Assembly (NCBI GenBank): GCA_009838645.1
Contig: VXRC01000006.1
Coordinates: forward strand, 1 to 64,000
Reading direction: 5' to 3'
Length of the DNA: 64,000 nt
Source: Gemmatimonadota bacterium
GTDB taxonomy: Bacteria; JAAXHH01
Part shown: piece by piece, positions 6,524 to 25,046 of the stretch
How the letters are laid out: every line of letters starts with the position of its first letter
How positions within the stretch are numbered: position 1 is the first letter of the stretch
The notes under the pieces: generated by a model
What the model was told of the DNA's origin: nothing
The model's input: the letters and a program-made list of their open reading frames with translations, nothing else
The model's database searches: none
Translations under genes and position numbers: made by a program

Positions 6524-7477
6524 ATGGACATCAAACTCGTCGTAGCCGTAACTGACGGGAATTGGTTCAAGACGCTCCGACAGAAGCCGCATCTGGACGA
6601 AGTCAACTTCTGGGCGCCCTCTGCTACGAACTTCAACGCGCTTCGGCCCGGCGAGCTGTTCCTTTTCAAGCTGCATGCACCTTACAATGTGATCGTTGGC
6701 GGTGGCATTTTTGCCTATTCCAATGTGCTACCCTGTTCCCTCGCATGGGAAGCGTTCGGGGAAGCGAACGGCGCCGATTCGTTGCAGGAAATGCGAAATC
6801 GTATCTCTCGGTATCTTCGGAACGTCGACCCGCATGAGCCGAGTGACTTCAAGATCGGATGCCGGATTCTAACCCAACCCTTTTTCCTCGAGGAATCCGA
6901 GTATATCGAGGTGCCGCCGACCTGGTCACCGAACATCGTGTCGCTTAAGACATTCAGTACCGGGGAATCCGACGGGCGGGCGTTGTGGGACGAGGTAAAC
7001 GCCCGGTTGAAATTCCGCCAGTCGACCGGCCTGATGACAGATCCAGCAGGCATCGTAGCCGATCCGGCCGGGAAATCCCTTTTTGGCAAACCGCAACTGG
7101 TAAAACCGCGACTCGGTCAAGGAGCATTCAGGGTGCTGGTAACCGATATTTACGAACGCCGCTGCGCGGTTACCCGTGAGCGGACGCTGCCTGCCCTGGA
7201 CGCCGCGCATATTCGACCTTTCAGCGACGGGGGTCTTCACGAAGCGAGAAACGGGCTGTTACTCCGGCGGGATATACATGGGCTGTTCGACTCCGGATAC
7301 GTTACCGTTACCCCGGATCTTCGCTTCGAGGTCAGTGGACAGGTCCGGGAGGAATTCGAGAACGGACGGGATTACTATGATATGCACGGTAACCGGATCG
7401 TCGTTCCTGACAAGGTAGCGGACCAGCCGGATCCCAAGGTGCTATCCTGGCACAACGAAAAGATCTACAAAGGGTGA
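6524..7477 (+). CDS. HNH endonuclease with N-terminal PUA/EVE-like candidate reader domain
   Basis: A 317-residue two-domain protein. The C-terminal part is an HNH_2-type nuclease: RRCAVTRERT (about 212-221), LDAAHIRPFSDGG with His229, Asn243 in ARNGLLL and His252 in RDIHGLFD form the expected H-N-H beta-beta-alpha metal site. The N-terminal 140 residues contain WFKTLRQ, FWAPSA and PGELFLFKL followed by GGGIFA, resembling PUA/EVE/ASCH-like folds that read modified bases; this is a visual inference. Known relatives restrict DNA carrying modified bases (type IV-like). It is followed nine bases later by a second HNH gene, so the two form an operon, on the opposite strand from the rest of the island. 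Confidence 0.8.
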   Translation: MDIKLVVAVTDGNWFKTLRQKPHLDEVNFWAPSATNFNALRPGELFLFKLHAPYNVIVGGGIFAYSNVLPCSLAWEAFGEANGADSLQEMRNRISRYLRNVDPHEPSDFKIGCRILTQPFFLEESEYIEVPPTWSPNIVSLKTFSTGESDGRALWDEVNARLKFRQSTGLMTDPAGIVADPAGKSLFGKPQLVKPRLGQGAFRVLVTDIYERRCAVTRERTLPALDAAHIRPFSDGGLHEARNGLLLRRDIHGLFDSGYVTVTPDLRFEVSGQVREEFENGRDYYDMHGNRIVVPDKVADQPDPKVLSWHNEKIYKG

Positions 7478-7486
7478 TGGACTGCC

Positions 7487-8416
7487 ATGAACGTTGAAGG
7501 TAGTGGTTTCAAGATGAGAATGACCGCGTTCGATCACGTGCGGCGACTGAGTGAAGCCCACGGTCACCTTACAAGAAGCCAGTTAAACCAGGGGTTTTTG
7601 TTTGAAGGAAAGCGTATTCCCCTGGTCAATCCGCAACGAGGGATTTTCAAGCCTCGACAAATGCGGTTTTTACTTTCTATCACTACTGTGGTTCCTAAAT
7701 CCGGCGGAAGGATAAAGTACGATGATCAGCGGACACTGGTCCATCGGCGGATCTTTGAGGGCGAGGAAACCTTAGACTATGCGTTTATGGGTCAGAACCC
7801 AGAATCAGCGGAAAACCAGTGGCTAAAGGAGGCCTGGAAGAATCGGATTCCCGTGATCTACTTTCTCGGTGTTTCTCCCGGTCTTTATCAGGCGATCGTC
7901 CCCACCTTTATCTCTGGATGGGATGGATCCGCCCTCAAGTCCTCACTAATCATCGGAAACCCCTACCAAGAGGGGTTCGAAGAACCGATTAACGCGAAGG
8001 AACGTCGATATGCACTGCGCCTCGTTAAGGAACGCCTACACCAAGATACGTTCCGCGATGCCGTCCTACACGCATATCGTGGCCGTTGCGCAATCACCGG
8101 CCTGCCGGAAACGCAGTTGCTGGACGCCGCCCACATCATAGCGGATGGTGACGAAACCTTCGGACAACCCATCGTACCAAACGGACTGGCCCTGTCCAAG
8201 ATCCATCACGCTGCCTTCGATGCCCACCTTATCGGCATTGATCCCAACTACCGACTGCACGTATCCGAACGGCTGTTAGAAAAGAAAGATGGTCCCATGC
8301 TCCAGGCACTCAAGCAGCTCGACGGATCGGGGCTGCACCTGCCGTCACGCACAATAGATCATCCAGATCCGGAGCGATTGGAACGTCGGTTCGAGACCTT
8401 CAGGAAGGCGGGGTAA
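7487..8416 (+). CDS. HNH endonuclease, second member of a tandem pair
   Basis: A 309-residue protein with an HNH_2 domain at the C terminus: GRCAITGLPETQLLDAAHI (199-217), Asn232 in VPNGLALSKIHHAAFD and His240/His241, ending with an EDGPML-like block (KKDGPML) and a proline-rich tail. The N-terminal region (GIFKPRQMRFLLSITT, then IPVIYFLGVSPGLYQAI) matches the layout of a widespread family of HNH proteins in which this domain is thought to recognise DNA, possibly SRA/PUA-like. It probably cleaves foreign, perhaps modified, DNA. Met10 or Met12 could be the true start. It begins nine bases after the preceding HNH gene. Confidence 0.8.
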   Translation: MNVEGSGFKMRMTAFDHVRRLSEAHGHLTRSQLNQGFLFEGKRIPLVNPQRGIFKPRQMRFLLSITTVVPKSGGRIKYDDQRTLVHRRIFEGEETLDYAFMGQNPESAENQWLKEAWKNRIPVIYFLGVSPGLYQAIVPTFISGWDGSALKSSLIIGNPYQEGFEEPINAKERRYALRLVKERLHQDTFRDAVLHAYRGRCAITGLPETQLLDAAHIIADGDETFGQPIVPNGLALSKIHHAAFDAHLIGIDPNYRLHVSERLLEKKDGPMLQALKQLDGSGLHLPSRTIDHPDPERLERRFETFRKAG

Positions 8417-8484
8417 GCGAAGCCCGGGGTATTTTCTAATTTGTGCGTTATTGACGGATTTACGAGATCTGCGATTGTATTTAC

Positions 8485-9402
8485 TCACTCCGGTTCAAAG
8501 TACCCTTCATCTATGCGTTTGATAGTGTAAGATACCTCTTCTCGTACCCCCACATCATAGTCAACCATTAGTTCGGCCAATCTGTCCCCGTCAATCAGTA
8601 CAATATGCTTAGGGCTCTGATTCGCTACTTCCCGAGCAGGGGGCGTGAAATCCGAGGTTGTTACAAAGATTCCTTTTGATGCATGTTTCGCGTCTAACGC
8701 GCCTCCAAACTCCAACATGTCGCTAGTTCCCACCTTATGATCAGAAGCGAATCGTTTGGCTTGAACATAAACCTTATCAAGCCCGAGTTTGTCTTCGCTG
8801 ATGATACAATCGATACCTTTATCACCCGGTCCTCCTATGACCTCTCCCGATTCAGGACCACCGTAACCCATTGCTGTCAATAAGTCCAGTACCAGATGTT
8901 CAAAAGTAGATGAAGACACATTGTATACCCGGTTCAATATATCTCCTTTCAAGGCTTCCTTTATGGTCACATATGCTTGTTCAAGGTGTTCAACTGGCGA
9001 TTCAGAAATTGGGGAAGATCCAGCATCGTCACCGGTATCAGATGTCTCCTGGCTCACCTTGCTCCCCCATGACCGGAAGGATTCAAAGCGTCTCAGGATT
9101 TCGACAGTAATATGGGAGGGATTTTGACTTAAGAGTTCCTTCCCTTCTTCGGTCAGCTTGTATGTCGCATGTTTGACTCGTTCGACTAACCCAGCCTTTA
9201 ACATGAAGGTTATAGCCCAACTGAAACGAACTTCAAGTTTTGTATTTCCGCCGCTCGGTGTCAGCTCTTTCAGGTCATTCTCTTCCAGCGCCAGAGATCC
9301 AATTACATCTTCACGTATATTGCTCTTCTTCATTTCAGTATCAGCCAACGCCAGAGACTTAAGAATCGGCAACATGAGTGTATAGTGATCTGGAACGGGC
9401 AT
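8485..9402 (-). CDS. mrr: Mrr-type restriction endonuclease
   Basis: A 305-residue protein with the two Mrr domains. Residues 1-100 form a winged-helix Mrr_N domain (SWAITFMLKAGLVERVKHAT, then YKLTEEGKELL). A Ser/Glu-rich linker follows, and residues 150-290 form the PD-(D/E)XK Mrr catalytic domain, with Glu168 in FEHLVLDLL, Asp198 in GDKGIDCII and Gln214-Ala-Lys216 in VYVQAKRF. The Q-x-K variant of E-x-K is normal for Mrr. Such enzymes cut methylated or otherwise modified DNA. It lies 189 bp downstream of the metallopeptidase gene at the distal end of the type I locus; no gene was found in that gap. It is convergent with the HNH pair. Confidence 0.93.
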   Translation of the reverse strand: MPVPDHYTLMLPILKSLALADTEMKKSNIREDVIGSLALEENDLKELTPSGGNTKLEVRFSWAITFMLKAGLVERVKHATYKLTEEGKELLSQNPSHITVEILRRFESFRSWGSKVSQETSDTGDDAGSSPISESPVEHLEQAYVTIKEALKGDILNRVYNVSSSTFEHLVLDLLTAMGYGGPESGEVIGGPGDKGIDCIISEDKLGLDKVYVQAKRFASDHKVGTSDMLEFGGALDAKHASKGIFVTTSDFTPPAREVANQSPKHIVLIDGDRLAELMVDYDVGVREEVSYTIKRIDEGYFEPE

Positions 9403-9591
9403 AGCCAGACTCCTGTACTGGTGGGGTATCAGATATACTTAACGTGTTATGTAGATTCCGCGACATAGAGCGTCAAATTTCAGACGCTCAGGAGTTCACG
9501 GAAGACCCAGTGATTGCAGAGAAAACGGCCGTGGTGGGTGGATCTTGTGACGGAGAATGGCGACTTCACGGAAATTCGGTCATAATAACAT

Positions 9592-10326
9592 TCAGTAACG
9601 CCAGTTTTCATGTGCGAGAGGCGCACTGTTCAATTCGTCCCGGTACAAACGCCACTGAGGAAGATGCTCATCCATCAGTGCCGTGAAACGGTCGTTATGT
9701 TTGCGTTCGATCAGGTGGATCATCTCGTGTACGAGGATGTACACCAGGCAGGATGCAGGTTTTTTTGCCAGTTCTAAGTTCAACCAGATACGTTTTGCTT
9801 CAACATTGCAAGAGCCCCAGAGGGTCTTCATCCTCTTGATTTGTATTTCGTTTACTGTAACACCGGTTTTACGTTGCCAATCGTCCTTCAACGGTACTAG
9901 TTGATCTCGCAGTTGCCTCCTGTACCACAGATGTAGTACAGCTTCCCGTTCGTCCCGGTTGGCATTCGGCCGGAAGCGTATTTCCATCCTCGTGTTGTTT
10001 AACAGTCGGACACCAGGTGGACCATCGAACTCACTCGCCTGTAACCGGTAGCGACGACCTCGATAGTAATGACTTTCACCCGACACGAACTCTCGCTGAG
10101 ACTGTCGGACTTGCTTTTCGAATTCGGCCTGTTTCTTCCGGATCCATGCCAGACGTGAAACAACCGCCGCCCGGACGGCATCGTCGTCGAAATGCAACGG
10201 TGCGGCCACGCGGACTCTGCCGTTCGGTGGATACACGCCGAGATGCAGGTTTTTGATGTCCTTTCGGACGATCTCTATCGCTGTTCCTCGTACTTTGATG
10301 AGGTGACTACTCAATTCAGTATTCAT
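9592..10326 (-). CDS. YgjP/DUF45-family zinc metallopeptidase of the hsdR operon
   Basis: A 244-residue protein of the YgjP-like (DUF45, M48-related) family. The zinc site is HEMIHLIERKH (His200, Glu201, His204, third ligand His210), preceded by the family motif TLWGSCN. Such genes commonly follow hsdR, but their role in restriction is not established; proteolytic control of HsdR has been suggested. The ATG at 10326 overlaps the hsdR stop codon (10316-10318) by 11 bases, indicating translational coupling. An alternative ATG at 10356 would add ten residues inside hsdR. Confidence 0.88.
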   Translation of the reverse strand: MNTELSSHLIKVRGTAIEIVRKDIKNLHLGVYPPNGRVRVAAPLHFDDDAVRAAVVSRLAWIRKKQAEFEKQVRQSQREFVSGESHYYRGRRYRLQASEFDGPPGVRLLNNTRMEIRFRPNANRDEREAVLHLWYRRQLRDQLVPLKDDWQRKTGVTVNEIQIKRMKTLWGSCNVEAKRIWLNLELAKKPASCLVYILVHEMIHLIERKHNDRFTALMDEHLPQWRLYRDELNSAPLAHENWRY

Positions 10327-13300
10327 CCTGGTGCTTTGCGATATCAAAAATCGCATTTACGAGGTCTTCGTTGCCGTCGAGTTCCGACTTGATGGCGTTA
10401 CGGACCTCTCGCTCCTTTATTGTATGCCCCCTCCATGCATCTTTCTTTGCGTGTCTGATGGCTTTGTCTATTGCCAGAGCCATCGCCTCCGAAACGTCCT
10501 CGTCTGATTCGACGGGGAAATCCGGCGTATGTTGCTTCACCACCAACCCGTCTACTCCAACCAAATTGTCGTACAGGGACATTAACGCAGAGGTGTTAAT
10601 AGTTGAAGGATAGGACTCAGAAGCTTCGGTCTCCGGACTATGAACTTTTTTAGCTAGTTCGACCATCTTGGCGAGGTATTTTTTGTATTCCAGTGCTTCC
10701 TGCTTACGCTGGCGAATCAGATCGTCCAGTAATCGCGACATTTTCTTATAGTACTTCGGGTTGACCGGTGTCTCATCGATAATCAGTCGGCGGACGTTAT
10801 TCTCAATGGTCGAACTTACGGCTTCTTTGTCCTCTTGCATGGATTCAGGTAGCATATCGACTGCGTCTTCACCATCTCTGACAATCAGTTCTACCAGGGT
10901 CATATCGTCGAACGTGGAGACTTTCTCGCTTTCCTCTGCCTGGATGTAGGTATCAAGTAGATGGCGCATGGCGGGCTCAAACATTTTCATATCGACAAAG
11001 TCGCCGCTGTTTAACTTGACCTCTTTCCGAGCCTTCTCAAAGTGGTCCACTTCGGTCCGTATCTCCTTGGTCTCGGCAACGGAGTAGCCAGCTTCCTCCA
11101 TCTCGTTTGCCAGGTTTGCATATGCGCGCAGGAAAGCCGCCACAGATTTATAGAATGCGACGCGTTTCGGTTCGTTTTCTTTTAGTTGTTCAGCGTTCCC
11201 ACTTGTCGTGCCACAGAAGTACTTGATATATGCGGAAGTATCGCGCGGTGGTTCGACGTGTTCCGTCAGTGCCTTGATTGCCTCCCTCGTCTCCTCCAAC
11301 CGCTCACGACCTTGTTGCAGCCGGTCTTTAAGTAATCCTTTTACATCTTCAGCATCGTAGCCATCGAACGCCTCGCCGGTGTAGTCTTTGATCGATTGTT
11401 CCAGGGATCGGAAGAGATCTTTATAGTCGATTATGTATCCGTAATCCTTGTCATCACCGTCAAGACGGTTGACCCGGCAGATCGCCTGGAACAGTCCGTG
11501 ATCCTGCATATGTTTGTCGATGTAAAGACAGGTTGCAGAAGGTGCGTCAAAACCCGTCAGTAGCTTGTCTACCACGATCAATAGCTTCATTTGGCCGGGA
11601 CTTTCGATGAAGCGCTTCTTGACTTCCTGCTCAAACAAGTCGGCCTTGTGCATTGCAGCGTCTTCGGGTTCGTTGAAGTAGTCCGCGAGCATCTTACGGT
11701 AGACGTCGTATTTTTGTATCTTCTCAGTAAGCCCTTCCCCCGTCTCCTCCCCTTTTATGTCCGCGATGGCCGGTCGATAGGAGGTTATGATGGCGCACTT
11801 TCCCTCCAGGCCATGATTCTGAAACATCTCATAGATGCGACAGGCCGAGTATATGCTGTCCGAGACAAGCAACGCGTTGCCCCGATCACTCTTAAGTCGG
11901 TCACGCGTCTCCATGTCCAACAGTATGTCCGCCACGATTTTCTCCAGCCGGTGCTGTGAACTCAGTACCCTCCGCATCGTGCCCCAACGCTCCTTGAGTT
12001 GAGCCTTCGCCACGTCGCTCAACCCCTTGGTCTTGGCGTCGAACCACTGATCAACCTTCTCCTGAGAGGTGATGTTCTGATCTATGTCGCGCGCCTCGTA
12101 ACGCAGATCCAGTACCACACCATCGTTCACCGCTTCGTCGTACTTGTAGGTGTGTATGTAGGGTCCGAAAGTCTCGATACTACGTCTTTTGTCATCCCTT
12201 AGCAGCGGTGTGCCAGTAAACCCGATAAGTGTAGAATCAGGAAGTAACTGTTTCATGGCTCTGTGGAGTTTGCCGGACTGGGTTCGATGGCATTCGTCGA
12301 CAAAGACGAAGAGTTCTCCCTTGGCCTGGAAGTCACTGGGAAGGTTCTTCCTGATATCGTCGAGGTATGAGTCGATGTCGCCTTCCTCCGACGAACTGAA
12401 TTTGTGTATCAGAGAGCAAACCAACCACTCGTTAGATGAATTCAAGACGTGAACAAGGTCGGCACCGCTCTTGGTTCGATGAATATCCTCACTTACACCT
12501 TTGAAGACTTTCTCAATTTGCTCGTCCAGTTCGGTGCGGTCGGTGATGATAAGGACGCGTCCGCCGCTGACGTTCTCGCGTATCCACTTCGCCAGCCACA
12601 CCATGGTCAGGCTTTTACCACTGCCCTGGGTGTGCCATATGACGCCTCCCTCGCGCTGGTTCACATGCTCCTGGGCAGCTTGAACACCAAAGTACTGATT
12701 GTGCCGACAGATCTTTTTGTTACCCGTGTCGAAGACGATGAAGTCGTGTACAATTTCCAACAGTCGTTTCTTGTCGCAAAGTTGGCTGAGTTCCTGGTGC
12801 AGTGGATATTCATCGATGGTGTTTGAGGATTCTTGTTCCTTCCAACGCAGCCAGTGTTTCTCTGGCGTTTCTATCGCACCGTAACGAAGTCCTTCCGTCT
12901 CGTTACCCGCCATAACCAACTGTACGGTTGTGAAAAACTGCCGGATGAACTCCTTCTTCTGGCTGTCGAGGTTCTGCCGGATGCCCTCGCTTACCGATAC
13001 AATGGAGCGCTTCAGTTCCAGTACGCCTATGGCGATTCCGTTGACGTACAGTACAATATCGGGACGTCGTGTATTTTCACCGACGACTGTCACCTCTTCG
13101 GCGATGGCGAAGTCGTTGTTTTCGGGGTTTTCCCAATCGATCAACCATATGGTGACCGTTTGCTCACCTACTGCGGGTTGAATCTTCACACCGTAGCGGA
13201 GCAGTTCATAAATCTCGCGGTTGGCATCGTAGAGCGTTCTACTTCCGCCGAGTGCTGTCGCCTTGCCAAAAGAAATCAGAGTCTTGTCGATAATCCCTTT

Positions 13301-13465
13301 ATCGTGACCCTGGCGCTTGAGCCAGTCTGTAATCAGTTCGTCCTCTACGTTGCTATTATCGTTACGAACCTTCCAATTACCGAGATAGGCGAAACCTAGC
13401 GTATCTTCAAACAACTCGACGACGCGTTGCTGTGTAAGGATCTCCTGTTCACCGACTTTGCTCAT
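10316..13465 (-). CDS. hsdR: Type I restriction enzyme R subunit (HsdR)
   Basis: A 1049-residue motor-nuclease. The N-terminal nuclease has Asp136 in RRPDIVLYVNG and Glu150-Leu-Lys152 in GVLELKRS. The translocase follows: Walker A HTQGSGKS (about 278-285), Walker B VFVDECHRTQ (DECH, about 390-393) and motif III FTGTPLL (about 416-422). A helicase domain 2 (DKLLTGFDAP, QAICRVNR) and a long helical C-terminal region complete it. HsdR joins HsdM2-HsdS to translocate and cut DNA lacking the host methylation. It is intact, but it is separated from hsdM-hsdS by about 7.5 kb of cargo (RloC-like gene, giant nuclease-like gene, VapBC). Confidence 0.96.
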   Translation of the reverse strand: MSKVGEQEILTQQRVVELFEDTLGFAYLGNWKVRNDNSNVEDELITDWLKRQGHDKGIIDKTLISFGKATALGGSRTLYDANREIYELLRYGVKIQPAVGEQTVTIWLIDWENPENNDFAIAEEVTVVGENTRRPDIVLYVNGIAIGVLELKRSIVSVSEGIRQNLDSQKKEFIRQFFTTVQLVMAGNETEGLRYGAIETPEKHWLRWKEQESSNTIDEYPLHQELSQLCDKKRLLEIVHDFIVFDTGNKKICRHNQYFGVQAAQEHVNQREGGVIWHTQGSGKSLTMVWLAKWIRENVSGGRVLIITDRTELDEQIEKVFKGVSEDIHRTKSGADLVHVLNSSNEWLVCSLIHKFSSSEEGDIDSYLDDIRKNLPSDFQAKGELFVFVDECHRTQSGKLHRAMKQLLPDSTLIGFTGTPLLRDDKRRSIETFGPYIHTYKYDEAVNDGVVLDLRYEARDIDQNITSQEKVDQWFDAKTKGLSDVAKAQLKERWGTMRRVLSSQHRLEKIVADILLDMETRDRLKSDRGNALLVSDSIYSACRIYEMFQNHGLEGKCAIITSYRPAIADIKGEETGEGLTEKIQKYDVYRKMLADYFNEPEDAAMHKADLFEQEVKKRFIESPGQMKLLIVVDKLLTGFDAPSATCLYIDKHMQDHGLFQAICRVNRLDGDDKDYGYIIDYKDLFRSLEQSIKDYTGEAFDGYDAEDVKGLLKDRLQQGRERLEETREAIKALTEHVEPPRDTSAYIKYFCGTTSGNAEQLKENEPKRVAFYKSVAAFLRAYANLANEMEEAGYSVAETKEIRTEVDHFEKARKEVKLNSGDFVDMKMFEPAMRHLLDTYIQAEESEKVSTFDDMTLVELIVRDGEDAVDMLPESMQEDKEAVSSTIENNVRRLIIDETPVNPKYYKKMSRLLDDLIRQRKQEALEYKKYLAKMVELAKKVHSPETEASESYPSTINTSALMSLYDNLVGVDGLVVKQHTPDFPVESDEDVSEAMALAIDKAIRHAKKDAWRGHTIKEREVRNAIKSELDGNEDLVNAIFDIAKHQDEY

Positions 13466-13573
13466 AGCGTCATGCTCTCAGACTTGGCATTTGTGGAGGC
13501 GGATAGGCTCTCATTGGTCTGGTAAAGAGCCCGGGACTTGGTCGATTCATTCCTGCGATAGTCTATGAAGCAG

Positions 13574-13993
13574 TCAAATGGACCAAGGGTTGATTACCTC
13601 AATTTCGCAGTATTCGAAATCTCTGACATTACGTGTTGCGACTGCCGCTCCATGACATCTTGCGATGGCTGCCAACTGGCAATCTGCATCACTGATCGGC
13701 TGCCCAATAGCTCGTCGATTGGCAGCGATTTTCGCGTACATACGTGCAGCATCGCTGTCAAAAGGTAAGATGCGCCGCACGAAAACCTTCTGGAGCAGAG
13801 TCTCTATTGCGATACTTAGCGTTTCACGACGCCTACCCATCGGTAGAATCTCCACACCATACCGTAACTCCGCTTCCGTGATCGCTGACAAGAACACGGC
13901 TGAAAAGGATTGTTCAGCAATCCAGTTCGTTACGGCAAGATTGGGTGTTGGGCGTGTAAACTCTGATACAACGTTGGTGTCGAGGAGTATCAT
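13574..13993 (-). CDS. vapC: VapC-family PIN-domain toxin
   Basis: A 139-residue PIN-domain ribonuclease. The acidic metal-binding residues are in place: Asp5 in MILLDTNVVSE, Glu42 in ITEAELRYG, Asp102/Asp104 in ISDADCQLAAIA and Asp125 in TRNVRDFEY. VapC toxins cleave RNA, often initiator tRNA or rRNA, until VapB neutralises them. The start codon lies ten bases after the stop of the upstream antitoxin gene, the usual antitoxin-first order. The pair sits between hsdR and the giant gene and may stabilise the island. Confidence 0.92.
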   Translation of the reverse strand: MILLDTNVVSEFTRPTPNLAVTNWIAEQSFSAVFLSAITEAELRYGVEILPMGRRRETLSIAIETLLQKVFVRRILPFDSDAARMYAKIAANRRAIGQPISDADCQLAAIARCHGAAVATRNVRDFEYCEIEVINPWSI

Positions 13994-14003
13994 TTCGTGC
14001 CAA

Positions 14004-14246
14004 TCAACCTAACTCCGGAGGATCACGCATCGGCTTGCGAGGTGGTATGTCAAGTTCCACACCACCCAACGGCTCAAAACAAGCGCGTATAGCTTGTGCC
14101 AAGTTTATTGGAGAGTTGCGTTCACTCAGCGCCGTTCGCAGGATTTCCCGGGCTTCTTCTTCCATGGAATGACCATGCTCAGCCGCCTGGATGCGTAGTC
14201 GATGTTTTATATCTTCGCTCAGATTGCGAATGGTCATGCTAGCCAT
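14004..14246 (-). CDS. vapB: VapB/FitA-like ribbon-helix-helix antitoxin
   Basis: An 80-residue protein beginning MASMTIRNLSEDIKHRLR, a FitA/Arc-type ribbon-helix-helix DNA-binding domain, followed by GHSMEEEAREILR and a C-terminal tail that should wrap the toxin. It would bind its own promoter and inhibit the adjacent VapC. GGAGG-like purines lie upstream of the ATG. The 14247-14475 gap before the giant gene's stop is AT-rich and contains no supported gene. Confidence 0.9.
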   Translation of the reverse strand: MASMTIRNLSEDIKHRLRIQAAEHGHSMEEEAREILRTALSERNSPINLAQAIRACFEPLGGVELDIPPRKPMRDPPELG

Positions 14247-14475
14247 TTATGCCTCCTTTTATGCCATCTCGGATCATAAATTAAAGTGTTGATTGCATTG
14301 AAGTCAATGATATCGAATTTTCATTCTGCTTTGCACACCTATGACCAACGTTATCAAGAATCGATTTTGTTCAGTTTGTACTTACACAACCCCAACAGAC
14401 TCTGTCATTCGCATATCCCGCAATACATTTTGAATGTAGTCATAGCATTAGTGTCATCGAACAACTGCGGGTAAA

Positions 14476-17400
14476 CTAAACTCCCACATCGTCCAACGGA
14501 CCGATCTTATCATTCGGTATGGGCAGGTTTGAAAGGAATCTCATTGGTACCTGAATGTTTGTAATTAACCTCTGGTCAATACGATTTGGATTCACTGGCA
14601 TCCCTATGATCGTGTTCAAGCTTGAGGAATTGGTTTCGATCCAGTTTACCCTTCTCATATGCTTAAACAGCTCATCTTTCGCTTCTCCACGGAAACGACG
14701 GCAGATTTCACTGATCTCTGCGACTGTTCGGGCAAGTCTCAATCGTTTACACTCAATGATTAAGATTGCGCCATTTGGTTTCCAAGCCAAGACGTCAATA
14801 TCTCCAAAGTCGGACGACGCACCTATCTGAGTCATCGGAATCTCGGTTCTGGTTTGCCATCCATTCGTACTCAGATGTTCAGCGACTGTGACAGTGAAGT
14901 CATGACCTTTCTTGTCTGTGATTCCGCCGATAAAACTTCTCATCTTATCCGATCTAAAAAACTCCTGAGGTAGGTACCCTTCTTCTAGGCAGTATAGTAG
15001 ATAACGGAATCCCAACTGTAAGGTGCCAACTCCGAATATCACTGCGTCCGTGTCCTGTTTTCCGAAAACAAGTATCGGCTTAAAGACTATGGACAATCGA
15101 CGACTGTAACGCCACGGTTGTATATCCCTGTTTGTCATCCCAGGCGGTGTAGAATCCCATTTGGGCCTGTGGAATATACTGAAAGCAGTGATGAGTGCAT
15201 TGGTCGTGGTTTCGGAGAATCCCCTATTGGATGCAAGTCTGTTTCGAATTTCGCCAAGTGTCGTCTTGACAACGATATCATCATTATCTATCGCCATTTC
15301 GAAAATCTCTGCAAATCCGGCAACGGTATCTTGTAATGGTATTTGGAACTCGGCCTCAAACGCCTCGATGAAGTCCTCAGGGTATAGCTCCTCAACTGGT
15401 TTTGAAGATGGTCTGTTTTGATACTGAGTATGGTATTTTGATGCAGCATCCCCGAAATCATCGGTAGCGTATGCTTTCAAGAAAGGTTCGATTACAGTAT
15501 TGATGAATTCATGTTCTATCGAGTAAGAGCCATTTTGGTGCAACTCTATCGGAGGATTGATCAGCTTGTTTTTGATACCGTCGGAATGAGCTGCGACTTC
15601 ATGCATAAGGGCAGCTTTCGCTATAAACTCATCCAATTGCTCTTGTGAGAGTGGATTGCCTCCAAACTCCGGGCATTCACAAATCGCCATTTCCAATATG
15701 GTACGAGTCGACAAATCTGTGATGCTTCGCATTCCCTCACGTTCATGTACGGTACCATGCACATCGTCATCCGGTCCGTACAGCGCTTGAACAGCATTTG
15801 CAGTGCGACGCCAACGATTTCGGTCATGGAGGATGTTTTCGTGAACATATAACAAATTTCGCAATACTGAAGCTCGATCAAGAGTCTTCAATCTACTTCG
15901 TATCTGACTCCAGATCTTGGCAACGACTTTATTCAAAAAACATTTGCATGCGCTCCTCGAATCGAGATTACTCACGTAATCACTTGGTAGACAGTCCTCC
16001 GACAGTTTTAGTTTTGTAAAAGCGAAGTCCTCTGGTGCAAGCAATACTGGTTTCTTGTTATGTTTTTGTAATATTTGCTCGACTCTATCATAACTTGTCA
16101 GAACATGTATTATTCGTATACCTGCATCATTTACAATCCTGTCCGTTAGTTGCTCGACAATTTGTTCATCGAAGTCCGTGACTACTCTTGTATGTAGTCT
16201 GATGAGGGCTTTCGCAATATGCTTGACAACATATGTCTCACCGATGTTTTCAGGCTGCTGGAAGTACTTCAAGAGAACTGCCGGAAGCTCTATTACGGCA
16301 GTTCGGTTTTGTACTGAAATCCTCGGTTCAACAATTTCCGTTGCCGATTGTGCTTCTGCATCGACTTCGGGCATAACAACATCGGTAAGATCAAGGCATA
16401 CTTCTATCGGTCCAGATTGCAGATTTGAGTTCTGTGACTCGTATTCGACCACAACCCTATAAAACAAGTCAATAAAACCATGCCAAAACTGAAAAGCATG
16501 GTTCCGAAATCCATTTCCCTTTTCGCGTAGGCGTAAACTAAACCAACTGGGACCTCGTCTTGTTTCAATCACACCTGCCAAGACGCCAGATAGGCCATGA
16601 TCAATGCTTCCATATACCGGTCGAGTAGTAAGGGAATGAAAGTACGTATCTATATCGAGCCGTTTGACGTCTACATAAACTTCATTCGTAGTTCGGATTA
16701 AATGGCGGTCAAGGGTTCTTCTGCATTCTGTTCGTACATTCAGGGTATAACCGTCATCGACTAAAAAAACGGATCTTGGGCTTACTGAAAGCTCACGAGA
16801 TACTATCTGAAAACCAGACCTTAGCCAGTAACAGAAAACTGTGTAGTCACCGGTGATACCTGTAAACTTAACTCCTTGTTTTTCTGCCCATTTTTTTTGA
16901 TTGATGAATTTCAAAAACCGTATGATCGATTGGGCTGGATCATCTACCAACATGAGGAAATCCGAGATATGAATCACCGAAAGACTCCATCTGTTCGCCC
17001 AGTTCCGGAAACTCATACCGCAGTTACCTCCCAATCCACCTGTCACTAATAGGGTTGTTCCGTCGTTTTTACCTGGTGAAGCCATGCATCGGTCTACAGT
17101 GCGATTTAGGTAAGCGCATAGAGATTCCTCTGTTTCTTTTCGATATCCAATCAAACAGTCTAGACCTTCGTTGTGCAGTGGTTTCAAAGGGTAATTAAGG
17201 AGGACTACATGCAGGTACCGGTTTACGTCTACCTTCAACAACCAATCGTGAATTGGTAGATCCGTAGCCTCTGTGCTCAGTGATTCAGTGGAATCCGCTT
17301 TTTCCAATCTGTTTATACCTTCCAATTCGATCTGGTAAGACTGATAAGAATTCAACAGTTGTGCGAAGGTCGGCAGAAGCCCCAACGTTTGTAGCCTACC

Positions 17401-18156
17401 CAAAAGAAATCTCCTGATTGCAGGACCAACTGCATTCGGCAAAGCAAGAACCAGCATCTTACCAACTTTCAAAAGTGGGTATCGCTCAAGTGAAGTATGG
17501 CCTAAAGTCTCTGATAGAAGGAGTTTCCTATCGCGAGACTTGAGGATAAACGGTTCCAAAAAGGCGGGGTTAATCTGGTATGTGGTAAGTTCGTTTGAGG
17601 TGAAGGATACGAAGTTTCCTCTGTCGACAATCCGGGTCGTGGGCGACAACATACATGCTTCTTGTGGATACGATGGCTCAGAATGCCACCTTTGTAATCC
17701 AACTCTATCCGCGACAATTTCGCTCAATTTCAGTAACGTGAGTATCGGGGCGAGTAATCTCCCAAGTTCTGGTGTTACTTGTCGTGAGCATAGAATGTCG
17801 ATAACCGTCTGTGTGAAGTAACAACTTGAAAGCCAGATACCCTCAAACAGCCGTCGATTGCCTTCGGGGGTTCTAACGTTTGTGATGAAAACATCCTCAG
17901 CCGGGTCTTCTGCAAACTTAAGGGACATATTACCTAGCAAATCGTTTAGCCAACGTTCTATTACTTTCAACGAAGGCTTACTTGTCCCTCGACAGTGGAT
18001 AACTGCAAGATGAACAAGGACCTCTATACGAAGAGCATTCGCATGGAATGACGGTACGGTGAGTAGGCTGGCAATGCGACTTACGGTATCGCGTATTTTG
18101 TACTTCCGAAGGACCTTTGCAAGTTGCTTCAGTTCGGGGTTGTCGAGAGGAATCAT
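14476..18156 (-). CDS. Giant uncharacterised protein with C-terminal PD-(D/E)XK nuclease-like domain
   Basis: A 1226-residue protein that I do not recognise as a whole. The only clear motif is near the C terminus: FGDIDVLAWKPNGAILIIEC followed by Lys-Arg, which puts Asp1121, Glu1135 and Lys1137 at the spacing of a PD-(D/E)XK (Mrr/restriction-like) active site. The first 1100 residues are mostly helical in appearance, with no Walker A, helicase, SNF2 or methylase motif and no signal peptide. A Gly-rich LLVTGGLGGNCGM (about 384-396) stands out but is not a canonical P-loop. The gene lies between the RloC-like gene and vapBC, in its own unit with about 280 bp upstream. Base composition is AT-rich like the island. 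Likely an anti-phage nuclease; function is inference. Confidence 0.6.
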   Translation of the reverse strand: MIPLDNPELKQLAKVLRKYKIRDTVSRIASLLTVPSFHANALRIEVLVHLAVIHCRGTSKPSLKVIERWLNDLLGNMSLKFAEDPAEDVFITNVRTPEGNRRLFEGIWLSSCYFTQTVIDILCSRQVTPELGRLLAPILTLLKLSEIVADRVGLQRWHSEPSYPQEACMLSPTTRIVDRGNFVSFTSNELTTYQINPAFLEPFILKSRDRKLLLSETLGHTSLERYPLLKVGKMLVLALPNAVGPAIRRFLLGRLQTLGLLPTFAQLLNSYQSYQIELEGINRLEKADSTESLSTEATDLPIHDWLLKVDVNRYLHVVLLNYPLKPLHNEGLDCLIGYRKETEESLCAYLNRTVDRCMASPGKNDGTTLLVTGGLGGNCGMSFRNWANRWSLSVIHISDFLMLVDDPAQSIIRFLKFINQKKWAEKQGVKFTGITGDYTVFCYWLRSGFQIVSRELSVSPRSVFLVDDGYTLNVRTECRRTLDRHLIRTTNEVYVDVKRLDIDTYFHSLTTRPVYGSIDHGLSGVLAGVIETRRGPSWFSLRLREKGNGFRNHAFQFWHGFIDLFYRVVVEYESQNSNLQSGPIEVCLDLTDVVMPEVDAEAQSATEIVEPRISVQNRTAVIELPAVLLKYFQQPENIGETYVVKHIAKALIRLHTRVVTDFDEQIVEQLTDRIVNDAGIRIIHVLTSYDRVEQILQKHNKKPVLLAPEDFAFTKLKLSEDCLPSDYVSNLDSRSACKCFLNKVVAKIWSQIRSRLKTLDRASVLRNLLYVHENILHDRNRWRRTANAVQALYGPDDDVHGTVHEREGMRSITDLSTRTILEMAICECPEFGGNPLSQEQLDEFIAKAALMHEVAAHSDGIKNKLINPPIELHQNGSYSIEHEFINTVIEPFLKAYATDDFGDAASKYHTQYQNRPSSKPVEELYPEDFIEAFEAEFQIPLQDTVAGFAEIFEMAIDNDDIVVKTTLGEIRNRLASNRGFSETTTNALITAFSIFHRPKWDSTPPGMTNRDIQPWRYSRRLSIVFKPILVFGKQDTDAVIFGVGTLQLGFRYLLYCLEEGYLPQEFFRSDKMRSFIGGITDKKGHDFTVTVAEHLSTNGWQTRTEIPMTQIGASSDFGDIDVLAWKPNGAILIIECKRLRLARTVAEISEICRRFRGEAKDELFKHMRRVNWIETNSSSLNTIIGMPVNPNRIDQRLITNIQVPMRFLSNLPIPNDKIGPLDDVGV

Positions 18157-18353
18157 CTATTACTCAGTCTAACTTTTCGTGGAATTAACCCATTAAACAC
18201 GAGACCGGATCTAGCCTGTAACCTGAAAGTTCAAACTAGTTACTCGGTTTCTTTTTGGCGTAACTATGGGTTTTACTAGACTTACTCGACCAGTAAGGAG
18301 TTTTTGTATAATATCCGGTTTGACGCCGCGAGTTTAGTTTAAGAGGTGGTCAG

Positions 18354-18394
18354 TTGCGACGATCTCAACTTTCATGTCGGAGGTCATCGCAACT
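18354..18394. repeat. Inverted repeat upstream of the giant gene
   Basis: GTTGCGACGA (18354-18363) faces TCATCGCAAC (18385-18394), pairing at nine of ten positions around a loop of about 20 nt. It lies about 200 bp upstream of the giant gene start and 40 bp after the RloC-like stop, so it could be an operator or part of a terminator; no T-run follows closely. The 18157-18433 gap otherwise carries a TATAAT on the + strand (18307-18312) without a clear -35. Confidence 0.4.
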
Positions 18395-18433
18395 AACAGT
18401 GTAAATGTACGGTTTCGTGGTGGTCGGCGCTGT

Positions 18434-21027
18434 TCAGACTACGTCCTTTGTGGACCGATTCTTGAACTCCTCGCGCCATTTCTTCAGAGACTCCAAGTCT
18501 TCGCGCAGTTCCAGTTCTTCAGGAAGTGAGATCGGCACTTCCTGCGACTGACTGTGCTCGTAGCTCGAATACTTGGTCATCAGATCATCAATAAACTTAC
18601 AATCTTCTCGACTGATTCTTACAAGCGGTCTAAGTCTGTTATCAGTCGTGATACTCCTTCGGTGACGGCGCACAACTTGATTCAGCAGGTCGTCTTCGAC
18701 CGTGCGCTCCAATAGTTTACGAAAGTCAGAGCAAATTCCTTGCGCGAGACCTTGGTAGGCGGAAGCACCGCCCGTTTCGCCAGCCCTTTTGGCCTCGTCC
18801 AGACGCGTCAAAAGAATACCGTTGGCCTTTTTGGTAGTAGCATTCCAGACAGCATCATCAGCCGGGTGACCAGCGGATCCTGAAAAGGATTCAATGCATC
18901 GTTGCTTAAGGTTTCTACGCTTCCATTCTTCACCGACTTTTTTTGCAGCGTCCTCCATCGCACCATATAGGGAAAGCCGGTGTGTAAACACCAAAACTTG
19001 ACGACTCCTTGCCAGTTGAACAAGACGAGTCGCCACGTGCCATTCGAAGTCTTGATCCAGCGACGAGATCGGATCGTCAAAAATGAATGGGGCCGCGTGG
19101 GGCTTCTCTGCCACATCGGCCAGAAACGCCGCTAGAGATACGACGCGACGTTCTCCGTCGCTCAGAATTTCTTCAGGAGCATTCTCCGTTTTCAATTCGA
19201 CCCCCTTCAGACGAAGACCGTGTAGTGCTTGCCCTTTTACAGTCTTTGTTTTAATTAGTTCGACCTTTATTCGCGATGCGCCCAACATCCTGAGTTCTTG
19301 GTTGAACCGATCTACGTATGCCTGCGTGATTACTTTCTCGGCGACACGTCCTGCCTCAAGGGATATCTTTCGTGAGTTCGCAAATTGCTCCCATTTCTCA
19401 TATTTTTTCACATTCTTTAGACGAGTGATTTCACATTTAATCGCAGTAGCTTGCTGCGCCGTCCAACGCAAGGCCTCCAAATTCAATTTGTCTTGAGTTG
19501 CCTTTTCCCGATCGAAGTTCTTCGCATCGTCATCATTTTGCAGTGCGTCTTGCTCAAGTAATTCGGCGCGTCGGTTTATTTCGGTCAATAGTTTATCGGG
19601 TGGTTCTATGGCAATGGCCTCCGCATCTTTCTCGCCGTTACGAAGATCGTTACAGGTATTGCCCACTTGGGTCCAGAAGGTACTTAGATTCTCGACCCAG
19701 CCCTCCTCGATCAGCCCAGCAGCCTGACACCTCGTACGGGTTCCCTCGTCATTCCATTGTGTCGGTAAGCCTTCCAGCAATCCGCTGTACGCTGTTTCAG
19801 CCGCCTTGGCTTCAATCTCTACTGCACCTTGGACAAAAGCTTCAAACTCCTGCAATCGAATTTGTGCTTCTTGAGCCAATTCCTGATGACAAAGAACGCA
19901 CAATGCGCCGTTATCTGTAACAGGGAATTCTAATCCTGGATAAGCTGTCTGCGAATAAAGGCGTGCTGCCTTCCAAAGTGCATTCCAAGTTTCAGTCCCA
20001 ATGCCATCTAATTTGGCACTTCCTAATTGGGCGGCAGCGGCCTCAGTAGCGATCGTACGTTTCAGATGTGCCTCCCTACGAGAATTTCGCAGAATTTCCA
20101 ACTGTTCAGGGCCAACGGCGGTCGCGGCGTTTTTCAACTCTACTCCGAGTTGGTCGAGTTGGCTCTTTGTTTCACGTTTTTTAATCGCGAGCTTTTTCGG
20201 GTCGTCCGCATTTAGGCGTTCAGTCAGCTTCCTGAGTTCTTCTTCGCAATCTTTATCCCACTGTGTTAGACATTGGATCTCTTCCTCGCTAAGATCGTAT
20301 CTCAGTGCAGCATACATTTTACCTGCGTTAGTAGTTCGGTATTCTGGCGGCATATCTGGGAGTGTGCTGACTAGAAGTTCCCGTTCATTTTGAAGTCTCG
20401 TTTTCACTTTGTCGCACACAGCTGCCAACGCCTCGAACAAAGTTACGGACGGTGGCGTGTAGGAGATTGCTTTCTCCTGGCTGATATAAAAGGTCGCAGC
20501 ATCTGCGTCGAATACATCTACGGCGCGGAGGTCCTGTATCGGAGAGTCGTTTGCCTGCCATGTAGCCAACTTCTCGCTTCCAGCCAAACTGTAGAGAATC
20601 TGACATTGCTGCTTTGCAGGCCGACCTTCAAACACATTGAACTTGAGCGCCGTTGCATTGGATTTCCGCATGCTCGTTTAAGAATGCGAATGTAGCCGGA
20701 TTTCCCGGAACCGTTGGGACCGTAGATTACGGCAAGATTTCCAGTACCGAAAGTAAGAGGACTTTGCGGGCACAGGTTTTCAATGCCGCAGATCTCGCCA
20801 ATTTCTAGGAGGTGAACTTCTGTAGAGGAGGTAGAAGTCGTTCTTAAACCGTCGAATTTTCGGTGAGTTGTAATCTGCTGCCCAACTGTGGTCTTAAGAA
20901 GCTCAGTGATGGCTTGGATGTCGCTATCTGCCAAGTTGTTTGAAGCAAGTAGTTTCTCGACCGCTTCCTGAATCCAATCCTGTTGTTGGTGAAGCCAAGT
21001 ACAAATCTCTTTCTCAATGTCAGGCAT
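18434..21027 (-). pseudogene. RloC-like AAA ATPase / candidate anticodon nuclease, split by a frameshift
   Basis: Two overlapping frames encode one protein of about 864 residues. The first (start ATG 21027) carries Walker A YGPNGSGKS at about residues 102-110; the rest continues in the -1 frame down to 18434. Numbered from the second frame's ATG (20671): zinc-hook-like Cys258-Val-Leu-Cys261 within coiled coil, ABC signature LSDGERR (504-510), Walker B FIFDDPISSLD (529-539) and H-loop VFTH. Conserved R-x3-E pairs (Arg651/Glu655, Arg685/Glu689) with His670 and His706 could be the nuclease residues. RloC proteins cut tRNA anticodon loops in response to DNA damage or failed restriction. Restoring one A in the AAA run at about 20,660 would give a continuous reading frame. 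The start overlaps the hsdS stop by eight bases. Confidence 0.8.
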
Positions 21028-22375
21028 CTGCAGTCCTCTCTAATTCGACCAATCGTATCCGGCCGGTGAGGAGTTGCTGCATCATATTCTGTTTGACTAA
21101 GAGTGTCTTGTCCCGGCGATGTTCCAGTGCGGTGATCTCGTCGTCCATGTCGGACAATACGTTGACGATTGCTAATTGCTCCTCGTTCGAAGGTAAGGGG
21201 ACTTGTAACTCTAAATAATCGGAGATACGGAGATTGGGATACGTAGATGCCTCAACCAAATACGGAAGGTTTTTCTTTATTCTGCTGGACACTAGTTGAT
21301 AATACAAAAACCGCGCATCACAATTAGTAGGGCGAAGGAGCATTAGGAAATTGCTGAAAATGAACGTCCCGGCTATTCCGGCAGAGACATATCCAACTTT
21401 TCCGGTTTGAATGCTTGCAGCAGAACCACTTGACTTCACTACAATTAGATCCCCTTCTTTCGGCGAAAAACGTGCAACCTGTTGCTCAGTAAAGTAACGA
21501 ATTCCCATCTCTTTGTTGTTCCAGCTGTCGTTAAGATTAATGTGGGTTGTGGTCGCAAAAGGCATTCCTATGAGTTGCTCAGACTGTCGGGCTACGCCGT
21601 AGATCCCAGCGGGTTCTAGGTGAATTAACTCACCCAATTGCTTCGTTTGCCACGTCTCATTGAATCCAGGGAGGCGGCACTCACCGGTGAGCAGACGCTG
21701 CATGACCGCATGCTTTAAAGCCCGTTTCTTGGCGATCAGCACTTCCTGCGCTTTGAGTAGTTTGTTTATGTCCGACAATACCTCGGCAATAGCGCGTTGT
21801 TCAGGCTCCGGCGGAACTGGTACCGAATAGCGTGCGACTTGAGGGGCTGTTAACTGAGGCACACCCGTGCTTTCGACAGCAAAACGGACTCCATGATTGA
21901 TGTAATTGGAGAAATACCTGGAGTCCATTCTGATCTTTGGCTTCAACACCAGAAGCCTGCCTATCGCTACAAATGATGTATTTCTATAAAAAGCTACTCC
22001 CAAAGAGCCTCTCGCTGTGATAGTGATTGACCCTGGTTGGTTTTCTGTGTAGTCAGAGAATCCATAGAGGCCTTCCTGCGAAACACCGTTCGCGAAGATG
22101 GGATATGGATGACTATCGCTTTGCACATCGCTGGATCTTTGTGAGACCAAGTCGCCACCAGCCGTTGATTTAAACAATTCGCCGATTCTCATTACGTCCC
22201 ATGCAGAAGGAATCACCCCCACTTCAGTCTGCTTGTAACCTGACGGCACCTCATCCGACCTGTCTGCCTGCGTGCGGTGCATCACAGCGGGCGCGGCATG
22301 CGAATAAGTATTTGCTGGTAACTCTGGGAACAGATCACTAAGGGCGTTACCCACAGTTTCTGGTTTCGTATTCAT
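21020..22375 (-). CDS. hsdS: Type I restriction-modification specificity subunit (HsdS)
   Basis: A 451-residue specificity subunit with two target-recognition domains. The first begins PSGYKQTEVGVIPSAWDVMR and ends at VPPEPEQRAIAEVLSDI, followed by a helical spacer ending in KHAVMQRLLTGECRLPGF. The second ends LQVPLPSNEEQLAIVNVLSD and a second helix with MMQQLLTGRIRL. The tandem EQxAIAxVLSD/LLTGxxRL pattern is the signature of HsdS. It dictates the bipartite DNA sequence methylated by HsdM and cut by HsdR. Both halves look intact. The stop overlaps the start of the RloC-like gene, so the two are co-translated. Confidence 0.95.
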   Translation of the reverse strand: MNTKPETVGNALSDLFPELPANTYSHAAPAVMHRTQADRSDEVPSGYKQTEVGVIPSAWDVMRIGELFKSTAGGDLVSQRSSDVQSDSHPYPIFANGVSQEGLYGFSDYTENQPGSITITARGSLGVAFYRNTSFVAIGRLLVLKPKIRMDSRYFSNYINHGVRFAVESTGVPQLTAPQVARYSVPVPPEPEQRAIAEVLSDINKLLKAQEVLIAKKRALKHAVMQRLLTGECRLPGFNETWQTKQLGELIHLEPAGIYGVARQSEQLIGMPFATTTHINLNDSWNNKEMGIRYFTEQQVARFSPKEGDLIVVKSSGSAASIQTGKVGYVSAGIAGTFIFSNFLMLLRPTNCDARFLYYQLVSSRIKKNLPYLVEASTYPNLRISDYLELQVPLPSNEEQLAIVNVLSDMDDEITALEHRRDKTLLVKQNMMQQLLTGRIRLVELERTADA

Positions 22376-22499
22376 TATTTTAGCTCAATCTCGAAAGTCA
22401 GTCACACTGATACTCAAGACGTCGCGGGTCATGGTTCGTTTAGGATGGACTGTAATATATGTGAAACAGACCTCGCTTTTGCGCGTACAAGATTCTTTC

Positions 22500-24941
22500 T
22501 CATAGTGAAATCCCCATCCGCCTTAAGTGCCCCTCGACCTTTGCACCAAACGTCTCCACCTCCCGCTCCAATTCTGGCAACGGTTGGGCGTAGCGTTCTT
22601 CTAGTTCCCTCACGCGTCCGGCAAGCTGTTGTGTCAGTCCTTGCACCTCATTCTCGATTGCAGCCCGTATGCTCGCAAACCACTTGTCCTCGACCACCAG
22701 CGTCCTGATCTCATTTTCTGTGAGTGTTGTGTAGCGGGCCAGCACTTTCTCGTCCAAGAGTTCTTGGAGGATTTTAACTGCCTTAGTCACCTGAGTCTCG
22801 GCCTCGATTAGGGTCCTGCATTGCTTTAGGGCATCTTGTTCTTCCTCGCTCTCCGGCTCGAATCGGATAGCCTTGAGCCGCTGCGTGACACTGCTCTTGG
22901 TGACCTTGCCCTTGTCATTGACAACATCCGCTAGCAACCCCTCTTCACCTGTCTGCTCCTCAACGAACTCCTCCAGTTCCCGGCTGGCGATTTCATGCTT
23001 CGTCTGCAGGGCTTCGATTGCAGTTTGATCGCCGGTAAAGTACCGAGAGACGATCAGCTTCGGTGGAAGCAAATCCATCTTGTACTTTACGCGCTTGATC
23101 GTGAGATCCGGCAATTCTTTGACCTTTCGACCTTTGTCTTCGATGATGCTACGCGGCCTGATGGTTTCGTTCCAACCGTCCGTAGTAATCAGGTACACGT
23201 CGTCCTGCATCGTTTCGTCCCAATAGTCCATCAACCTCTGAAACACGTTATACGGATTGAGCAGTGGCAGGTCTGCGACACGAGTCAGCAGATCCTCTGC
23301 CAGGGTGCGAATGATCTCCCTCGGGTTAGTACCAGTTACCAGTCCCTTGAGAACGGCCTCGTGTACTTTACACCAATCGTCGAGTACAACCGAAACACGG
23401 GCCTGGTACGATCTAAATTCTCCGTGATCGAGAATAGCTGCATTCACCTGTCTCGTTTCGATGCGACTAGCACTGTAGCCCTTTCGGCCGTTACCGACAA
23501 ACAACGTCTGGCGCAGTGAGGGGAAGACGTCCCAGTATGCACCGAGCGCGTCGAGGTCGCGGTCCGGGATGCCGCCTCGCAGATGGGCATCTAGGTCGTG
23601 CAAATCTTCCGGTTCGCTGGAATCGATGTAGCGCGGTATGTTGAGGTTATAATCGTTAGGGGGGCTCGCGATCTCGGCGATCGGTACCATGCGGGAATAA
23701 CGCGGCAACTCAATCAGTCGATTGAATACGTCGACGATCCGGTGGAGATCCTGTTCCCGCAGCCGGTTCTTGTTGCCGTCCTTGCGGAAGCCCTTGCTTG
23801 CGTCGATCATGAAGATGCCGTCGCGCGCATGGGCGTTTTCCTTGTCTAGTACTAGGATACATGCGGGGATACCGGTGCCGTAGAACAGGTTGGGCGGAAG
23901 GCCGACGATACCCTTGATAAATCCGCGTTGGATGACGTTCTTGCGTATGTCCGCCTCCCGGTTGCCCCGAAACAGTACGCCGTGAGGTAGGATGATCGCG
24001 CCTTTGCCCTTACTGTTGAGCGACGCAACAAGGTGAAGGAGAAAGGCGTAGTCGCCGTTCCTGGCAGGTGGGATACCGTAGCCAAAACGTCCAAACTCGT
24101 CGTTGGCCGGATCAAGGCCGTTGGACCAGGCCTTGGCGGAAAATGGCGGATTGGCAACGGCAAAGTCGAAGGTCTTGAGACGGTCGTTCTGGCTCTTAAA
24201 ATACGGAGCAGCAAGAGTGTTTCCTCGCCAGACTTCGGCAGTCTCGTGACCATGCAGGATTATGTTCATCCGCGCCAGCGCATAGGTGGCATTGTCCATT
24301 TCCTGCCCGTATACTGTAATGCCGCGCGGCGCTTCATTGGCGGCCCTGAGCAGGAGCGAACCTGAACCGCATGTCGGGTCGTAGAGGGTCTGATCCTGCC
24401 GGGTATCCGGCCCGATGCCGATTACCTGTGCCATGATGCGCGAGACCTCGGCCGGCGTGTAGAACTGTCCCTTGCTTTTGCCGGATTCTGTGGCAAAGTG
24501 CATCATCAGATACTCATAGGCGTCGCCGAGGAGATCATCCCCATCGGCCCGATTTGCGCCGAAATCCAGGCTATTAAATATAGCAACGAGCCTGGAGAGC
24601 CTGTCCTGCATTTCTTTGCCGGACCCCAGCTTGTTTTCGTCGTTGAAATCCGCTTGATCTATGACGCCTACCAAGTCGTTTTTTTCAGCGAGCGTAGCGA
24701 TCACTGTGTTTATCTTATCGCCGATCTCCTTATCACCGACAAGCTTTACAATATCGGAGAAACCCCCACCTTCGGGAACTTCTATGAGCATGTTCGGGTC
24801 TTTGGCCGCCTTGTCGGAGACGTACTTCATGAACAGCAGTGTAAGGACGTAATCCTTGTACTGAGAGGCGTCCATGCCACCACGCAGTTCATCGCAGCTT
24901 TGCCAAAGAGAGGAATACAGTTGGGACTTCTTCAGGGCCAT
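22500..24941 (-). CDS. hsdM: Type I restriction-modification DNA methyltransferase subunit (HsdM)
   Basis: An 813-residue N6-adenine methyltransferase. HsdM_N occupies residues 1-145 (LWQSCDELRGGMDASQYKDY). The SAM site is DPTCGSGSLLLRA (188-200) and the catalytic motif is NPPF (264-267) in FDFAVANPPFSAKAW. GQFYTPAEVSRIM is also typical. The usual HsdM is about 500-550 residues; here about 300 extra C-terminal residues form a helical, charged region (for example EALQTKHEIASRELEEF), a long variant seen in some type I systems. HsdM2-HsdS methylates host DNA. It is the first gene of the locus; a 124-bp gap precedes hsdS. Confidence 0.96.
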   Translation of the reverse strand: MALKKSQLYSSLWQSCDELRGGMDASQYKDYVLTLLFMKYVSDKAAKDPNMLIEVPEGGGFSDIVKLVGDKEIGDKINTVIATLAEKNDLVGVIDQADFNDENKLGSGKEMQDRLSRLVAIFNSLDFGANRADGDDLLGDAYEYLMMHFATESGKSKGQFYTPAEVSRIMAQVIGIGPDTRQDQTLYDPTCGSGSLLLRAANEAPRGITVYGQEMDNATYALARMNIILHGHETAEVWRGNTLAAPYFKSQNDRLKTFDFAVANPPFSAKAWSNGLDPANDEFGRFGYGIPPARNGDYAFLLHLVASLNSKGKGAIILPHGVLFRGNREADIRKNVIQRGFIKGIVGLPPNLFYGTGIPACILVLDKENAHARDGIFMIDASKGFRKDGNKNRLREQDLHRIVDVFNRLIELPRYSRMVPIAEIASPPNDYNLNIPRYIDSSEPEDLHDLDAHLRGGIPDRDLDALGAYWDVFPSLRQTLFVGNGRKGYSASRIETRQVNAAILDHGEFRSYQARVSVVLDDWCKVHEAVLKGLVTGTNPREIIRTLAEDLLTRVADLPLLNPYNVFQRLMDYWDETMQDDVYLITTDGWNETIRPRSIIEDKGRKVKELPDLTIKRVKYKMDLLPPKLIVSRYFTGDQTAIEALQTKHEIASRELEEFVEEQTGEEGLLADVVNDKGKVTKSSVTQRLKAIRFEPESEEEQDALKQCRTLIEAETQVTKAVKILQELLDEKVLARYTTLTENEIRTLVVEDKWFASIRAAIENEVQGLTQQLAGRVRELEERYAQPLPELEREVETFGAKVEGHLRRMGISL

Positions 24942-25046
24942 TTGGAATTCCCACTATTATGGATGCTGACTATGCTTAAGGGATTAATTGATTTGCAGAA
25001 ACACTACCGCTTGAAGTCTTTCCTACGTTCTAACCCGCTCACCGTC

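Follow-up and report, generated by a model that had tools for sequence, protein, structure and literature searches.

A divergent Upx homologue, a putative phage-defence effector, between hsdS and hsdR of a Gemmatimonadota type I restriction-modification locus

A protein of 1226 residues is encoded within a type I restriction-modification (RM) locus of this Gemmatimonadota genome, raising the question of which family it belongs to and whether it acts alone or with the RM enzyme. The original prediction, made from the sequence itself, took it for a candidate new defence nuclease, a single-protein anti-phage system outside the known families. Throughout, the window refers to the whole 64-kb stretch of DNA that was analysed. 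The protein very probably belongs, as a divergent member, to the Upx family; it is a single large protein with a C-terminal PD-(D/E)XK nuclease domain and a putative role as a phage-defence effector. The gene adds a member to a known family and is not a new defence system.

The upx gene and its island

The predicted reading frame at 14476-18156 is intact, encoding 1226 residues from an ATG start without an internal stop, but it lies on the minus strand. Pfam and PADLOC scans placed this upx homologue between hsdS and hsdR, confirming the location within a type I RM locus that had been proposed. The genes of the locus are listed below in their minus-strand order, together with a relic of hsdS.

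22500-24941, minus strand: hsdM, type I methyltransferase (PADLOC MTase_I, E=0)
21020-22375, minus strand: hsdS, type I specificity subunit (PADLOC Specificity_I, E=3.5e-77)
18434-21027, minus strand: candidate defence gene for a PDC-S06 AAA ATPase, broken into the frames 20518-21027 and 18434-20671 (PADLOC PDC-S06 matches both, E=1.6e-40 and 1.5e-266)
18268-18333, minus strand: hsdS 3'-end relic of 66 bp between PDC-S06 and upx (74% identity to the hsdS end of congener G011; translates to ...LLTGRVSLVKP)
14476-18156, minus strand: upx homologue, 1226 aa (PADLOC Upx, E=7e-150; NCBIfam NF042954, E=2e-170; PDB 9wuf, sequence E=2e-94, fold E=4e-63)
13574-13993, minus strand: PIN-domain VapC-like toxin gene (Pfam PIN, E=1.5e-15)
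10316-13465, minus strand: hsdR, type I restriction subunit (PADLOC REase_I, E=0)
9592-10356, minus strand: YgjP-like metallopeptidase gene, downstream of hsdR (Pfam YgjP-like, E=6.5e-59)
8485-9402, minus strand: Mrr-type type IV restriction enzyme (PADLOC mREase_IV, E=5.8e-72)

Comparison with two congeners yielded a dN/dS of 0.23, which indicates that upx is under purifying selection. The gene lies in a stretch of low G+C content, approximately 0.44-0.54 compared with 0.62-0.66 in the surroundings. A gap of 277 bp (18157-18433) separates upx from the gene upstream; no sigma-70-like site above chance was found in this gap, and the promoter and terminator scan remained at or below chance. Because the 66-bp relic of hsdS lies between PDC-S06 and upx, the arrangement suggests that upx formerly stood directly after hsdS, as it does in congener G010, and that PDC-S06 and the present hsdS may have arrived by recombination. 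The two halves of PDC-S06 overlap in the window, while congener G008 carries a single ORF of 862 aa (L100:10328-12916); the split is a frameshift, caused by decay into a pseudogene or by a mistake in the assembly.

The island as a whole (window 8417-25015) is accessory and occupies a fixed chromosomal site. It is missing in congeners G002, G003 and G007, in which its flanks are contiguous or nearly so, with a remnant of the PIN gene in G003. Just beyond the island, two adjoining HNH endonuclease genes (6524-8416, plus strand) are retained in G003 and G007, the second of which weakly resembles phosphorothioated-DNA restriction enzymes. Since no RNA family was found between 6000 and 26000 and no tRNA gene in the 64-kb window, no tRNA-borne integration site is visible in the window.

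Membership in the Upx family

Sequence profiles matched the protein to Upx along nearly its whole length. The PADLOC Upx model (PDLC02221) aligned residues 11-1206 with profile positions 39-1248 of 1271 (E=7e-150), and the NCBIfam model NF042954, named "anti-phage protein Upx", aligned residues 10-1209 with positions 20-1224 of 1240 (E=2e-170). By sequence, 9wuf_A was the sole relevant solved structure (phmmer E=2e-94), and the record of a Salmonella plasmid carries a partial Upx that matched 9wuf along its whole length with 1917 bits. The protein's unrecognised appearance can be attributed to Pfam, in which zero models match it.

The fold supports the same assignment. An AlphaFold model of residues 27-1226, built from 51 sequences comprising the window protein and its homologues, reached a mean pLDDT of 89.4 and a pTM of 0.89. 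A Foldseek search of the PDB with this model retrieved 9wuf, "Cryo-EM structure of Upx", with E=4.2e-63 and TM-scores of 0.81 and 0.80 over 1251 alignment columns, at 22% identity in the structural alignment; beyond 9wuf, no PDB match fell below E 0.001. A confident whole-length match to a named anti-phage protein with PADLOC and NCBIfam models and a cryo-EM structure thus refutes the claim of an unassigned family, and it is the very outcome that the original prediction had listed as refuting it.

The relationship is a distant one. The window protein scored 568.6 bits against NF042954, whose equivalog (naming) cut-off is 1900 bits; it is therefore classed as a divergent Upx homologue rather than as an equivalog, and the same function as Upx cannot be assumed for it. 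Only two of the eight scanned homologues passed this cut-off (Xenorhabdus, 2058 bits; Halopseudomonas, 1979 bits), with Luteimonas (1632), Pseudomonas (1645), Bosea (585), Nitrospira (634) and Fermentithermobacillus (638) below it. Intermediate sequences nevertheless link the window protein to Upx proteins above the cut-off, and all are alignable as one family. A tree built from 73 full-length sequences placed the window protein with its two congeners (support 100) within a wider group that includes Gammaproteobacteria, Nitrospira and one Bacillota sequence (support 99). Archaeal homologues were also present in Methanosarcina and Helarchaeota. No sign of a viral origin emerged, since Foldseek found no significant hit among viral proteins and tblastn found no match in phage records.

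Upx was reportedly described by Gao et al. in Science in 2020. A survey has grouped it with nuclease-type systems (PMC10855318), and a Pseudomonas Upx has been reported in a genomic-island hotspot (PMC12629846). Our literature search for the mechanism of Upx or an article on 9wuf returned survey papers only.

The C-terminal nuclease domain

The numbering of the proposed active-site residues, D1121, E1135 and K1137, is correct, and they fall within the following features.

14479-15069, minus strand: C-terminal PD-(D/E)XK domain, residues 1030-1226 (AlphaFold pLDDT 91.8; Foldseek matches)
14794-14796, minus strand: codon of D1121 (D in 87/87 homologues; in a strand of the model)
14746-14754, minus strand: codons of E1135-C1136-K1137, the ExK motif (E and K in 87/87 homologues; in the next strand)

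The original prediction had argued for a nuclease site from the spacing of these residues. By itself, the D-ExK motif is no evidence, because the pattern D-x(6-20)-[DE]-x-K occurs in 97.6% of shuffles of the window protein; the motif alone could have arisen by chance, a reading that conservation rules out. The conservation set comprised 89 related loci and the window, of which 87 sequences span the active site. D1121, E1135, K1137, H1166 and R1169 are invariant in all 87, although G1118 and D1121 belonged to the retrieval pattern, so that the unbiased evidence comes from E, K, H and R alone. The other refuting outcome named in the original prediction, which included loss of the D-ExK residues among homologues, was thus not seen, since the homologues retain them.

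The isolated C-terminal domain was predicted with a pLDDT of 91.8, and the full-length model places D1121 and then E1135-K1137 on consecutive strands after a long helix. After Upx, the Foldseek matches of this domain were mostly PD-(D/E)XK nucleases (R2 endonuclease, Hjc, EndoMS, Card1, SduA and VRR-Nuc), all with E > 0.001. On conservation and predicted fold, the C-terminus is a genuine PD-(D/E)XK domain, and the prediction of a nuclease site stands on these grounds rather than on spacing. Because the weak matches include Card1 and bunyaviral cap-snatching endonucleases, the fold does not separate a DNA from an RNA nuclease.

Mode of action, genomic context and known systems

Nuclease activity and a defence function are inferred for the window Upx by carrying them over from Upx, and a single-protein nuclease effector is the most likely mode. 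The protein would combine approximately 1000 N-terminal residues of mixed helices and strands with the C-terminal PD-(D/E)XK nuclease (D1121, E1135, K1137). Our guess as to trigger, autoinhibition and substrate is that the N-terminal body, a probable sensor or regulator, would detect an infection cue or phage nucleic acid and would keep the nuclease inactive when no phage is present. Upon infection, the nuclease would halt replication by cleaving nucleic acid, with phage DNA as the likeliest target. The upx gene travels as a replaceable passenger in the interval from hsdS to hsdR and does not necessarily need the RM enzyme. The original proposal of a single-protein anti-phage system therefore survives as the most likely mode, whereas its placement outside known families gives way to Upx, as assigned by PADLOC, NCBIfam and 9wuf.

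The neighbours of other homologues agree with a single-gene system. Among 119 immediate neighbours, no Pfam family occurred in more than six, the commonest being phage integrase, which agrees with upx as a single gene without an obligatory partner; diverse defence families stood alongside, with matches to type I RM, HerA, Avs2, LmuB and PsyrT. Such neighbourhoods fit a stand-alone, mobile defence gene. In approximately 80 loci from other genomes, genes resembling hsdM or hsdR lay near upx in only a few, notably Nitrospira L022 and Rifleibacterium L087; the window HsdM and HsdR served as queries, which distant type I families may escape, and with these queries linkage was inconsistent across homologues. 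The Nitrospira MAG (L022:287-9958) repeats the window order as hsdM-hsdS-upx-hsdR-ygjP, with HsdM only 33% and HsdR 27% identical to those of the window; the hsdS-upx-hsdR arrangement thus recurs with another type I family. The hsdS of this Nitrospira locus seemingly occupies two frames.

Within the genus, close relatives of hsdM and hsdR were found in five genomes, four of which carry upx. Congener G010 shows the order hsdM-hsdS-upx-PIN-hsdR, while in G011 hsdM-hsdS-upx is followed by a type IIG-like enzyme, a TIR protein and then hsdR. In G005, upx is broken near residue 714, at a contig break, by an element bounded by inverted repeats. The element ends (L018 and L019 contig ends) share an inverted repeat of about ACGGRATAAACAGTTATGGGCTTGAC, the contigs stop inside the element, and one side begins an apparent DNA methyltransferase gene. 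G008 has an RM locus without upx, in place of which it carries PDC-S06 and a cassette of QueC, TGT and TIR genes. These QueC-like, TGT-like and TIR-like genes (L100:6389-10213) lie between PDC-S06 and hsdR, the position of upx in other congeners, and the cassette resembles parts of type IV CBASS.

This context bears on a different relationship with the RM enzyme, in which Upx of the window clade would be silenced by HsdMSR and freed when a phage blocks restriction, in the manner of PrrC and EcoprrI. The position of upx between hsdS and hsdR in the upx-bearing congeners, the same order in Nitrospira with tight packing (gaps of no more than about 20 bp on either side of upx), and the precedent of prrC within the prrABD type IC operon (PMC3874165) favour such coupling. 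However, a link of this kind to the RM complex, though possible, is improbable, because most relatives lie far from detectable hsd genes. The available sequence of close relatives from Sedimenticola, Fermentithermobacillus and Gammaproteobacteria, short in part, contains no hsd genes, the RM locus of G008 does without upx, and TgvAB, likewise embedded, functions without HsdR restriction activity (PMC11411939). It is equally improbable that a Upx subclade has turned into a type I RM effector, namely a PD-(D/E)XK guard nuclease under RM control, transcribed from the interval between hsdS and hsdR and analogous to PrrC, although with cleavage chemistry unlike that of PrrC.

A decayed or non-defence relative, that is, a passenger nuclease with a housekeeping or mobile-element role, is less likely still. 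The adjoining PDC-S06 is frameshifted, upx of G005 is broken by a mobile element, and the anti-phage function of the window clade is putative; yet the window ORF is intact and under purifying selection, its catalytic residues are invariant, and it occupies an accessory, defence-dense site outside the core genome. Finally, a PD-(D/E)XK protein unrelated to Upx, founding a new single-gene defence family, might be suspected from the absent Pfam match and the sub-threshold NCBIfam score, but this reading is hardly credible and is refuted by the PADLOC match, by whole-length sequence and fold homology to 9wuf, and by the intermediates that connect the protein to above-cut-off Upx.

As a divergent Upx, the window protein illustrates that the family reaches well past the sequences named by NCBI, since homologues with an intact site are spread over many phyla of bacteria and extend to archaea. 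The resulting alignment of divergent sequences, which adds H1166 and R1169 to the invariant residues, may aid in interpreting the Upx structure. Furthermore, the locus offers one more defence gene nested among the genes of a type I RM system, an arrangement seen with two distinct hsd families.

The window protein shares with Upx full-length homology (residues 11-1206 of 1226), fold, the C-terminal D-ExK site and a single gene without a conserved partner; it differs in its 22% identity to 9wuf, its score of 568 against 1900 bits, its sparsely sampled host phylum and its type I RM operon setting. Shedu SduA and Card1 are likewise defence nucleases built on a PD-(D/E)XK-type core and appear as weak fold matches, but their similarity is not significant (E about 0.03-0.04) and the N-terminal body is not common to them. 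The nesting itself follows a known pattern, to which this locus adds a further case, since prrC and tgvAB have already been described inside type I RM operons. Like the window upx, prrC is an effector gene inside such an operon, that of EcoprrI; PrrC is an ATPase-type anticodon nuclease, whereas Upx has a PD-(D/E)XK domain and is usually unlinked to hsd genes. In Vibrio VPI-2, tgvAB similarly forms an extra restriction system inserted among type I hsd genes (PMC11411939), but TgvAB is a two-protein GmrSD-type enzyme of a different family from Upx.
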